A stretch of DNA of 22,921 bases, taken from a virus. The notes under the pieces are model-generated. The model saw only the letters and a program-made list of their open reading frames with translations. It was not told where the DNA came from and ran no database searches. Within the stretch, counting starts at the first letter, position 1; each line of letters begins with the position of its first letter. The stretch spans positions 1 to 22,921 of the IMG/VR virus record IMGVR_UViG_3300006920_000266. One strand, written 5' to 3'. Of the stretch, positions 1 through 22,921 are shown one piece after another. A program made the translations under genes and the position numbers.

Positions 1-1180
1 ATGCACCTAGAAGAGTTGGATCGTTAAGAAGCTTCCAATCGTGCTTATGGAAAGTGTATCCACCACGAGTAAACGACTTAAATCCAAGCTTTACAGCCAT
101 GTCTGAGTCGTTGTTGAATGCTCCAAACTGTCCTGGTAAACCAGCAGTAACACCTGTTGCTACACCTGTAGCTAACATGTCATCAATAGCTAGGTCTTGC
201 TTTCTGTTTAAGTACATAGCGTACTCGGAAGGTGCACCTTGCTTGTCAAGCTCCATGATAATATCATCAAACTCACCAAATGAATCCATTGGGTTAGCAT
301 TAGCGTTAGAAACTAAAATTCCACGATCCTCGATAGCTGAGAAGTAACCTTCAGATCCAGCAAACTCTGTATCAAAGTCTGTGTCAGAATTAGTAGCTGC
401 ACCAGACTCATTTCTCTTTTCACCGAAAAGCATCATTAACTCACGCTGATCTTCAAATCGAGCACGAGCTTCTTGCTCTGCGTACATGAACCAACGGTAC
501 TCTCCACCACCTACGTCAACCCATCCGATATTCGTTGCCTGAGATCCGTTCACTTCGTGACGACCCTTAACAATCATAAATGGATTAGAGTGACGAGTAA
601 TGTTAGACTCTCTGTAAGCTGTTGGCTGATTTGTTCCTTGTCCGTACATGTTACCAAGAACAATAAGCTCTCCATCAGTAGTAGCGTCAATATCAGTACT
701 TGCAGTAGTGTCAGTTCCGTCAAGCTTTACTAGCTTTACATTTGCTGCAGTTCCAGTGCCAAATCCGCCATTCTGAACAATGAATCGAGCTCCTGTTTCA
801 GAGTCCATAACTACGTCGTTTTCCTGAACATTTGACGTAACGTCAGAATCAGAAATTTCTACGTAGTCAGCTCCTGATCCATCAATAGCAGTGTTGCCTG
901 ATGTGTAAGCAAGCTTCTTGTGGCGACGGCCAGTCTCCCACCAGTCAATCTGGTCAGATGATCCTCCGCTGTTAATTGCTCCTGTTAGTTTAAGAAATCC
1001 AGTGATACCTTGATCACCGTAAGTCTCAACGAGGTTGGGCATTACCTCATCTTTAGTCGCTTTAATAAGCGAGTCAATAGTTGTATAGTTTTCAGACTGA
1101 ATTCTAAAATTAGAACCCGCTGCATCTAACGGAGGTAAATTACCTGTACCTGCCGTTCTATCTGTTCCTAATGTTGCCAT
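1..1180 (-). CDS. Major capsid protein, C-terminus cut by window edge
   Basis: I translated this minus-strand frame from the ATG at 1180-1178. It is open to the window edge, giving at least 393 residues with no stop. The protein starts MATLGTDRTAGTGNLPPL and runs through an acidic, Gly/Thr-rich middle. It has a long charged helix with RWFMYAEQEARARFEDQREL, then segments such as EYAMYLNRKQDLAIDDMLA and FTRGGYTFHKHDWKLLNDP near the cut. This mix, a helix-rich spine plus beta-rich insertions, and the position directly after a candidate scaffold gene, fit a HK97-fold major capsid protein that builds the icosahedral shell. The fold assignment is inference from context and composition; I recognise no diagnostic motif. 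The start lies 13 bases after the scaffold stop, so the two are probably co-transcribed from the promoter at 4850. The C-terminus lies outside the window. Confidence 0.75.
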   Translation of the reverse strand, partial: MATLGTDRTAGTGNLPPLDAAGSNFRIQSENYTTIDSLIKATKDEVMPNLVETYGDQGITGFLKLTGAINSGGSSDQIDWWETGRRHKKLAYTSGNTAIDGSGADYVEISDSDVTSNVQENDVVMDSETGARFIVQNGGFGTGTAANVKLVKLDGTDTTASTDIDATTDGELIVLGNMYGQGTNQPTAYRESNITRHSNPFMIVKGRHEVNGSQATNIGWVDVGGGEYRWFMYAEQEARARFEDQRELMMLFGEKRNESGAATNSDTDFDTEFAGSEGYFSAIEDRGILVSNANANPMDSFGEFDDIIMELDKQGAPSEYAMYLNRKQDLAIDDMLATGVATGVTAGLPGQFGAFNNDSDMAVKLGFKSFTRGGYTFHKHDWKLLNDPTLLGA

Positions 1181-1193
1181 ATTTTCTTATTTT

Positions 1194-2363
1194 TTATACT
1201 TTAAAAGTTAGTTTATTAGCCCCCTTCCCAATAAGATTTTTCATTTGTTCCACTAAGGGATTCTCTTGAGAGGCGGTTTGTGTGGGTACCTGAGCAGCTA
1301 CATTAGATGCATTCTGTACTATATTCTTTTGACCGTCACTAAGCCCCTGTCTATATGTAGAAGAAACTATAGAGTCGATATTATCGATAATAGCACGGTG
1401 TGAATTTAATGTATCAAAATCCCATGTCCCGTCTTGACGAACATATGAATCAAAGTACTCATCTAATCGAGAGTTCTTATTCACAAGTTCTTGTTTGTAT
1501 CGGTCATCCAATCCGAAAGTGAAGGTTTTCTCATTACCAAGATCAAATTCTAATCCTGTTAATGCATCCGCTTCTGATCTCATCTCTGAGACCCAATCCT
1601 CCGTTATAAAGCTTGTATCAGCTTGTTCAGCAGCTTGTTCTTGAACTTCAGGAGCCATATATTTCATACGCTCTCCTTCAATTTTTTCTTTAGCTTTAGC
1701 TGCATCTACCTTCATTTGAAGGCCGCCAACTTTAACTTCTTGTTCAGTATACATGTCTGGATCTAACTTGTATCTGCTCTGAACTAGAGTAGTAACCTCG
1801 TCTGCTGTTAGATTAGGATATTGTATCGCTGTATCTACTTTTAACATCGTCATATCATCCATTTCGGTTGTATTTAACGACTGATAAGTAAACCACTCTT
1901 GTGGAGATCGTCCAGTTTCTTGGACAAATCTAGCAATAGCATCCACTCTCTCATCTAGAGGTTGGGGTGTTGCGACAATATCGTCAAAAGAAGCTACGTC
2001 TTTACCCAGCCTTTCGCTGAGATATGAAAAAACTGCTCCTTCGATTTCGTTGTCGCTGTATTGTATAGGTTCAGGCTGTGTAGCCTGATTTAATTCTTGA
2101 GTTTGGGGTTGTACGCTCTCAGTTTGTTGAGGGGGTTCAACCGCTTCTTCCATTTGCTGTTGAGGTTCTGCAGGCACTTCTGGTGCAGATTGTGGCTCAA
2201 CCTGCGGAAGAGGTTGTTCTTGTATACGATCAGAAACTACTTGAGACTCCTGTTGTGGAGCCTCTTCAGTTACTGTTTCTGTTTGATTGTTTTGCGTAGA
2301 CGCAACAATTTCTTCGGGTGAGTTGAATACTTCAAACCCCCCAATACTTTGTTTATTTTCCAT
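1194..2363 (-). CDS. Putative capsid scaffolding protein
   Basis: The protein has 389 residues. Residues 1-100 are an extreme low-complexity Glu/Gln/Pro tract (repeated EEAPQQ, EPQQQ and PQTQEL type words), so they are probably disordered. Residues 105-260 are helical and charged, with predicted coiled-coil character (for example AAKAKEKIEGERMKYMAPEVQEQ in outline). The last third is mixed, and the end (about 365-389) is LVEQMKNLIGKGANKLTFKV-like and basic. An acidic, elongated, helical protein encoded just upstream of the major capsid gene, with a short basic C-terminus that could contact capsid, is the usual pattern for a phage scaffold that guides procapsid assembly and then leaves. No protease motif is visible. 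Alternative: a minor head or ejection protein. The function is inferred from position and composition only. Confidence 0.5.
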   Translation of the reverse strand: MENKQSIGGFEVFNSPEEIVASTQNNQTETVTEEAPQQESQVVSDRIQEQPLPQVEPQSAPEVPAEPQQQMEEAVEPPQQTESVQPQTQELNQATQPEPIQYSDNEIEGAVFSYLSERLGKDVASFDDIVATPQPLDERVDAIARFVQETGRSPQEWFTYQSLNTTEMDDMTMLKVDTAIQYPNLTADEVTTLVQSRYKLDPDMYTEQEVKVGGLQMKVDAAKAKEKIEGERMKYMAPEVQEQAAEQADTSFITEDWVSEMRSEADALTGLEFDLGNEKTFTFGLDDRYKQELVNKNSRLDEYFDSYVRQDGTWDFDTLNSHRAIIDNIDSIVSSTYRQGLSDGQKNIVQNASNVAAQVPTQTASQENPLVEQMKNLIGKGANKLTFKV

Positions 2364-22152: not shown

Positions 22153-22184
22153 TGTACATGGTGGGGATTATATATATATGTACA
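22153..22184. repeat. Inverted repeat flanking an AT run
   Basis: TGTACAT (22153-22159) and ATGTACA (22178-22184) are 7-bp inverted arms separated by 18 bases that include a TATATATAT run. An easily melted AT stretch framed by inverted repeats, next to ACGCA repeats, fits either an operator or an origin-opening element. This is inference from layout alone. Confidence 0.4.
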
Positions 22185-22190
22185 CGCTAG

Positions 22191-22348
22191 CATGACGCAC
22201 CCGAAACGCATCTCATGACCCACCCCCTCACGCATTATGCACGCAATCGCCATACTTTTCAGCTTTAGCATAGCTACATATTGGGAAAGTACCTAGCTAT
22301 CAAGTCAATCAGCATCATTATATGTAATATAATGGCTTTTTTTACGCA
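22191..22348. repeat. ACGCA iteron-like repeats and CATGACxCACCC pair
   Basis: ACGCA occurs at 22195, 22206, 22230 and 22241, as two pairs each spaced 11 bases, about one helical turn, and again at 22344. CATGACGCACCC (22191-22202) and CATGACCCACCC (22214-22225) form a near-perfect 12-base direct repeat. The patch is C-rich in an otherwise AT-rich window. Repeats phased on the helix beside an AT run are typical of replication or regulator binding sites. Confidence 0.4.
22316..22343 (+). terminator. Intrinsic-terminator-like hairpin in spacer
   Basis: CATTATA-TGTAA-TATAATG (22316-22334) is a perfect 7-bp stem followed by GC and seven T residues (22337-22343) on the plus strand. The stem is AT-rich, hence weak. 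As it lies upstream of the rightward gene and downstream of no plus-strand gene, it could end a small leader RNA or act as an attenuator. Confidence 0.4.
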
Positions 22349-22361
22349 CTGGCACGAAAGC

Positions 22362-22389
22362 AAGAGCTCTTTGGTATTGGTACAATACC
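22362..22389. repeat. Two adjacent hairpins upstream of rightward gene
   Basis: A perfect 10-base palindrome AAGAGCTCTT (22362-22371) is followed after one base by GGTATTG-GTA-CAATACC (22373-22389), a perfect 7-bp stem with a 3-base loop. They open the hairpin-dense stretch that continues through the rightward gene. Confidence 0.55.
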
Positions 22390-22436
22390 CTTCCCCCTCT
22401 TATACCATCACTTCAACCCCTCATTCCTGAATAGAT

Positions 22437-22454
22437 ACTATAACAAGTTATAGT
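22437..22454. repeat. 8-bp hairpin with 2-base loop
   Basis: ACTATAAC-AA-GTTATAGT is a perfect 8-bp stem in the presumed leader of the rightward gene. The tight two-base loop makes a stable hairpin in single-stranded DNA or RNA. Confidence 0.55.
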
Positions 22455-22490
22455 AGTTCCTCAACCCTCCAAACCCTTTAGTAGTTTTAG

Positions 22491-22522
22491 TAATATATCT
22501 CTTCACTTGTGAAGATATATTA
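22491..22522. repeat. Long imperfect inverted repeat before rightward gene
   Basis: TAATATAT and CTTCAC on the left pair with GTGAAG and ATATATTA on the right around a TT loop, a 14-bp stem with a two-base bulge (CT at 22499-22500). It lies 38 bases before the ATG at 22560. The size and symmetry suit an operator for a dimeric regulator or a leader hairpin. Confidence 0.55.
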
Positions 22523-22559
22523 CGTAAAACAACTTAATATCAACATCAAATCCAAACCA

Positions 22560-22921
22560 ATGGAAAACAATTTCAAATTCCTCCTAAAGGAGACAACTAC
22601 AGCAGTGAACAGGGTTCACTCTATCCCAAGCCAAGAGAACAAAGCGAATGCTTTGGTATTCCTCAAAACAATAACTCAACTTGTTGAGGACATGAAGGTA
22701 GAATCTCCAAAGGAGATTAAGAAGAAGCAGTTAGCCAAGCTAACTAAGGCTGAGTTACTAGCTATGCTAGTTGATGATGAAGATGATGAGCCGAAGGCTA
22801 CTAAGCCAAAGGCTAAGACCTCTAAGCCAAAGGCTAAGAGAAAGAAGAAAGCCAAGCATGACAACGGCTCCCTAGCTAGAAAAGCTAGAAAGACTAGAAC
22901 ACCTAACCAAAGGTTAGATGA
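22560..22921 (+). CDS. Lys-rich, histone-like protein, cut by window edge
   Basis: A plus-strand frame from the ATG at 22560 is open to the window edge (120 codons). Residues 1-50 are helical (MENNFKFLLKETTTAVNRVH, then ANALVFLKTITQLVEDMKV). About 50-75 is a charged linker (SPKEIKKKQLAKLTKAELLA). An acidic patch DDEDDEPK follows, then repeated KPKAK units (ATKPKAKTSKPKAKRKKKAK) like histone H1-type tails, and a further basic part. It has no Shine-Dalgarno sequence. Unlike the leftward genes it prefers AAG, GAG and CTA codons, because these complete the hairpins described separately. It is the first gene of a rightward unit, so it may be early and may bind nucleic acid. Family not recognised. 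Confidence 0.7.
   Translation, partial: MENNFKFLLKETTTAVNRVHSIPSQENKANALVFLKTITQLVEDMKVESPKEIKKKQLAKLTKAELLAMLVDDEDDEPKATKPKAKTSKPKAKRKKKAKHDNGSLARKARKTRTPNQRLD
22581..22917 (+). repeat. Dense array of about twelve short hairpins inside coding sequence
   Basis: Perfect stems (arms joined by loop) are: CTCC-TAAA-GGAG 22581-22592; AGTGAAC-AGG-GTTCACT 22604-22620; CAAAGC-GAAT-GCTTTG 22640-22655; CTCAAC-TT-GTTGAG 22675-22688; AATCTCC-AAA-GGAGATT 22702-22718; AGTTAGC-CAA-GCTAACT 22729-22745; ACTAGC-TAT-GCTAGT 22757-22771; AGCC-GAA-GGCT 22789-22799; AGCC-AAA-GGCT 22804-22814; the same again at 22825-22835 with outer CTCT/AGAG pairing; CTAGCT-AGAAA-AGCTAG 22872-22888; CTAACC-AAA-GGTTAG 22903-22917. 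Arms differ from hairpin to hairpin, so structure is repeated, not sequence. Centres are mostly 25-35 bases apart, and the hairpins begin at varying codon positions. Confidence 0.85.

Follow-up and report, generated by a model that had tools for sequence, protein, structure and literature searches.

The rightward early region of the viruses studied here begins with an array of about 10 to 25 short perfect inverted repeats that occupies the leader and the first gene. The array unit consists of arms of 6 to 9 bp and a loop of 2 to 4 bases, closed by a 5′-C or T and a 3′-G or A. Comparison of homologues shows that the stems are maintained at the nucleic acid level, and that the loops and exact arm sequences are free. 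The reading we favor, tentatively, is that the repeats function, or at any rate fold, as DNA hairpins at the start of the early region.

Short perfect stems in the first early gene and its leader

The DNA analyzed (the window) is the 22,921-base uncultured virus record IMGVR_UViG_3300006920_000266, positions 1 to 22,921. Its terminase and portal match phage families, and the nearest named matches to the terminase are from Flavobacterium and Cellulophaga phages. The viruses with the array are uncultured and form a group with a relationship to Bacteroidetes phages. The contig ends inside the first early gene, so the window shows the array only in part. Strand is given below for the motif, the hairpin core and the gene; the inverted repeats have none assigned.

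22161–22179, + strand, motif GTGGGGATTATATATATAT, candidate early promoter or replication start; hairpins start just downstream
22200–22209, + strand, CCCGAAACGC, core conserved in the first leader hairpin, present in the window without the full stem
22316–22334, leader hairpin, 8 bp stem, loop gta
22373–22389, leader hairpin, 7 bp stem, loop gta
22436–22455, leader hairpin, 9 bp stem, loop aa
22477–22537, long imperfect palindrome, centered on the 22500–22515 stem
22560–22921, + strand, first rightward (early) gene, small Lys-rich protein, cut by the contig end
22581–22592, 5 bp stem, loop aa, in the first early gene
22604–22620, 7 bp stem, loop agg, in the first early gene
22640–22655, 6 bp stem, loop gaat, in the first early gene
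22675–22688, 6 bp stem, loop tt, in the first early gene
22702–22718, 7 bp stem, loop aaa, in the first early gene
22729–22745, 7 bp stem, loop caa, in the first early gene
22757–22771, 6 bp stem, loop tat, in the first early gene
22872–22888, 6 bp stem, loop agaaa, in the first early gene
22903–22917, 6 bp stem, loop aaa, spanning the codons of the conserved N-Q-R-L motif

The original prediction reported eight perfect stems of at least 6 bp with loops of 2 to 5 bases in 362 bases of this gene, and all eight were found, with stems of 6 or 7 bp. Shuffled sequences that preserved the protein and codon use (n = 2000) lost the stems, with a mean of 0.75 and a maximum of 5 (P < 0.0005). The expectation of 0.35 stems given earlier was too low, yet the conclusion of an excess holds. 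The loops had been described as mostly three bases ending in AA, which is only partly correct (agg, gaat, tt, aaa, caa, tat, agaaa, aaa). The array had also been presented as a feature of coding sequence. It is present in the gene but is not confined to it: the leader (22180–22559) holds four stems of at least 6 bp compared to a null of 0.37 (P = 0.001), and in the window the array extends into the 5′ leader from about 22316. Leader and gene together contain 12 stems versus 0.85 expected. In several relatives the first leader hairpin is AATCCG-AAA-CGGATT.

It is very improbable that the array is a by-product of a repetitive Lys/Ala-rich protein and chance. The KPKAK repeats do produce AGCC-AAA-GGCT hairpins, as proposed at the outset, and these short hairpins are also present in the window gene. 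The protein repeat cannot account for the array because the protein-preserving shuffles lose the stems and because hairpins are also found in the noncoding leader. The codon shuffles refute chance or the repeat protein as the explanation. Leftward genes sampled by eye had been described as free of the pattern, and 9 of the 11 tested have no stem excess. Two leftward structural genes (window 2–2363) have a weak excess of 6-bp stems (4 versus about 1.1, P 0.01–0.02).

An N-terminal helical hairpin is predicted in the protein of the first early gene. The protein matches no known family, and a structure search with the helical hairpin returned no significant match. Homologues were looked for in isolated phages and bacterial genomes, and none were found. 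Long palindromes of the GTAATATATCTC..GAGATATATTAC type (window 22477–22537) precede early genes in all lineages read, array-free ones included.

The array locus in related phages

A cluster of this kind, with 8 to 14 stems per 400 bases, lies in the same place in L023, L049 and L057, three relatives identified by terminase. Their first early genes are homologous to that of the window, with proteins only about 25% identical to the window protein. The L049 gene has 16 stems versus 1.1 in codon shuffles, and the L057 gene has 13 versus 2.0. An array in the same place is found in dozens of related uncultured phage contigs, where the leader contains about 10 hairpins and the first early gene as many as 17. 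Across 59 homologous loci, most of them on contig fragments and not mutually independent, an excess is seen in nearly all, and gene stem counts reach 17 compared to 1 to 2 expected. The mean hairpin density is 12 to 26 per kb between −500 and +600 around the gene start versus 1.5 to 2 per kb outside, and it declines by about +1.5 kb. The onset is sharp and lies 25 to 50 bases downstream of the motif GTGGGGATTATATATATA. The core of this motif occurs once in each of the 8 genomes or contigs checked, and GC skew switches sign at the motif in some genomes. Hairpins at the start codons of early genes in general were looked for, and none were found beyond the first genes.

On four contigs joined from pieces, stem density peaks at the array in G010 and G003; the array is weaker in G001 and absent from G007. 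Both G007 and G015 retain the motif and the gene, and the gene has no stems. These two genomes keep the protein without the stems, so the protein does not require them. Loss of stems from a homologue that keeps the protein had been named beforehand as evidence against selection on the nucleic acid; it occurs in these two, and nearly all other homologues have the excess. Such natural variants with and without stems make the array directly testable. A phage sigma factor was considered as the gene distinguishing genomes that lack the array from those that have it and was rejected, as only G007 of 15 has one. The stretches of four related sequenced phages that were covered, not all of them fully, contain no array cluster.

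In 20 of the 59 loci the contig ends within 1.2 kb after the gene start, whereas contig ends immediately upstream are very rare. The array may be hypervariable, or it may interrupt assembly. Contig L197 carries a 216-base inverted repeat with a 2-base center in the leader, from about 560 bases upstream of the gene, that could be real or an artifact of amplification or assembly. G014 (L107) and G028 each have two adjacent copies of the first early gene, and in G014 both copies contain hairpins.

Stem turnover and the nature of the hairpins

Close homologues were compared to determine how the stems change, and the covariation anticipated in the original prediction was found: fully compensated hairpin changes equal or outnumber single-pair breaks. 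Between L183 and L184, synonymous paired changes convert ACC..AGG to ACT..AGA and the stem is kept. The same LEEV residues are encoded by other codons in L173 and L176, which gives a hairpin in a different register. Aligned sites are all-or-none, with 463 perfect stems, 126 with one defect, and 1266 with two or more. In the leaders of close pairs, differences affect 25% of loop, 9% of spacer, and 5% of stem sites. The paired and often synonymous stem changes, the all-or-none sites, and the fast loops show that the nucleic acid itself is constrained, as had been claimed from the window alone, and the codon shuffles and dozens of homologues agree. Codon use and synonymous change at this locus should not be read as neutral.

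A purely mutational origin is unlikely. In that case the stretch, close to a replication start or within DNA under heavy transcription, would undergo unusually frequent template switching (quasi-palindrome correction) that makes and mends stems without function. Perfect stems can both arise and persist through template switching (PMC8794818), and in yeast quasi-palindrome mutations become more frequent with transcription and RNA–DNA hybrids (PMC3820800). Such a copying process also suits the nearly identical leaders, where loops are the fastest-changing part and are replaced several bases at a time (for example, CGTTG to TAAGA and TCA to AGG), and the three closest leader pairs, where stems differ no less than spacers. 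At larger divergence, however, the leaders show about 2.5 times less change in stems than in spacers (28/420 versus 241/1411). Neutral decay of template-switch products should leave many one-mismatch stems, but these are almost absent, which frequent correction could also explain. The two homologues with the same place and motif but no stems also argue against a purely mutational origin. Loop inversion was discarded as a hallmark of template switching: exact loop flips occur, but no more frequently than in random pairing.

The loops and closing pairs bear on whether the hairpins are DNA or RNA. Leader triloops are strand-symmetric, with 27 GNA and 27 TNC among 119 (7.4 expected each); this tendency is class-wide only and is not general among the window's own loops. 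Two-base leader loops are TT in 31 cases versus AA in 24. The loop-closing pair is C-G or T-A in about 92 to 97% of array stems and is unbiased in hairpins outside. The UUCG loop is found in 0 of 382 unique array hairpins compared to 3 of 21 hammerhead stem III loops. Single G·U defects are no commoner than chance, with 3 G·U and 11 A·C in the gene. In the leader G·U outnumbers A·C (9 versus 3), a count that is small and speaks against the DNA reading. Hammerhead stems II and III in these genomes are also wobble-poor. Because these genuine RNA stems have few wobbles too, the wobble test is too weak to exclude RNA, and its use as proof of DNA was withdrawn. Taken together, the strand-symmetric loops, the GNA/TNC triloops, the Y-R closure, and the lack of a G·U excess lean toward DNA hairpins over mRNA structure, and no single test decides.

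A role at the RNA level is possible but somewhat doubtful. The earliest mRNA would consist of small hairpins in a row, which would protect it against single-strand-specific RNases, RNA-targeting immunity or long-range pairing, or make it a decoy that captures a hairpin-binding protein. Transcription of the array is probable, given the possible promoter upstream and the adjacent hammerhead ribozymes in the same operon. The close spacing of the first hairpins to a promoter-like motif, their fading after the first genes, and the placement of the start codon within a hairpin 3′ arm in several genomes are consistent with an RNA function. The strand symmetry of the noncoding leader loops, the missing UUCG, and G·U pairs not above chance argue against it, as does a sense-strand folding energy weaker than that of the antisense strand, a comparison confounded by base composition. 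Rfam searches of the window and three relatives at gathering thresholds gave no match to the array, and the L049 search returned chance-level matches and the hammerhead only.

The DNA, RNA, and mutational readings overlap, since stems under selection could at the same time be upheld by template switching. In the favored DNA reading, the repeats would function as DNA hairpins, or at a minimum fold into them, when the stretch is single-stranded (a replication start or leading region) or negatively supercoiled, like the N4 early-promoter hairpins. They may provide folded sites at which replication or transcription starts, or act as torsional sinks. Copying on hairpin templates (template switching) probably contributes to the perfection of the stems and to the turnover of the loops, and the codons of the first gene would be fitted around the array. 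The role of the motif as a promoter or origin, the formation of the hairpins in the cell, and any function of theirs are inferences. It is possible, though we hold it with limited confidence, that the array is a new genetic element: dense, sequence-independent short DNA hairpins, kept through a coding gene, that in a clade of dsDNA phages would mark and run the beginning of replication or early expression. That dozens of tiny stems dictate the codons of a gene, at the same position in many phages, means that this position depends on the shape of the nucleic acid and not its sequence, or that a copying process continually reshapes it. We found no precedent for either among dsDNA phages.

Known systems and neighboring ribozymes

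The array was said at the outset to resemble no named system, and none of those compared matches it. Single-strand initiation sites and hairpin origins of the G4/phiX type place several adjacent DNA hairpins at a replication start. They have conserved sequence and lie in noncoding DNA, whereas the array covers a gene and the origin here is only a candidate. The phage RNAs ROOL and GOLLD, and RNA structures in the coding regions of RNA viruses, contain many conserved helices with covariation. The array stems also covary but, unlike these RNAs, consist only of small independent stems with no Rfam match, unconserved loops, and no G·U excess. The strand-specific stable loops expected of a structured RNA were not found, the leader being symmetric and UUCG absent.

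A literature search of open-licence papers found no similar element. As far as found, there is no described counterpart, and the nearest systems are the N4 early-promoter hairpins and quasi-palindrome correction. The N4 early promoters are DNA hairpins extruded by supercoiling and read by the virion RNA polymerase, and the array has similarly short stems, a 3-base loop in part of its hairpins, and a location at early transcription. In work on N4, extrusion is reported to need a loop that starts with G, ends with A and is closed by C-G, and short hairpins of this kind extrude at physiological supercoiling (PMC4496689). The array hairpins as a class tend toward this pattern, with 54 of 119 leader triloops GNA or TNC and mostly C-G closure. 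In contrast to the three N4 promoters with conserved bases, the array consists of dozens of hairpins with more than 100 different arms that cover a gene. Conserved promoter bases of the N4 type were not found, as the 248 leader hairpins contain 149 distinct inner arms. A search for a virion RNA polymerase gave no match to three giant virion proteins or to the RNA_pol family, the family search having been run without a positive control. Quasi-palindrome correction likewise makes arms perfectly complementary in one event and yields compensated changes (PMC8794818, PMC3820800). It is known as scattered mutations, whereas the array is dense and occupies one locus across a viral clade.

Hammerhead ribozymes of the RAGATH-1 type lie just downstream in the same early operons, and the geometry of their stem III is similar to that of the array. 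They are nevertheless distinct from it: their core is conserved, and some of their loops are UUCG or GNRA. We detected 32 unique hammerhead cores between early genes in L023, L049, L057, and L151–L214, sometimes two per operon (for example, L049 2430–2504, minus strand, and L162 5085–5160). These cores are RAGATH-1-like with an open stem I and fall below the Rfam cut-off, and stem I contains a G·U pair in many copies.
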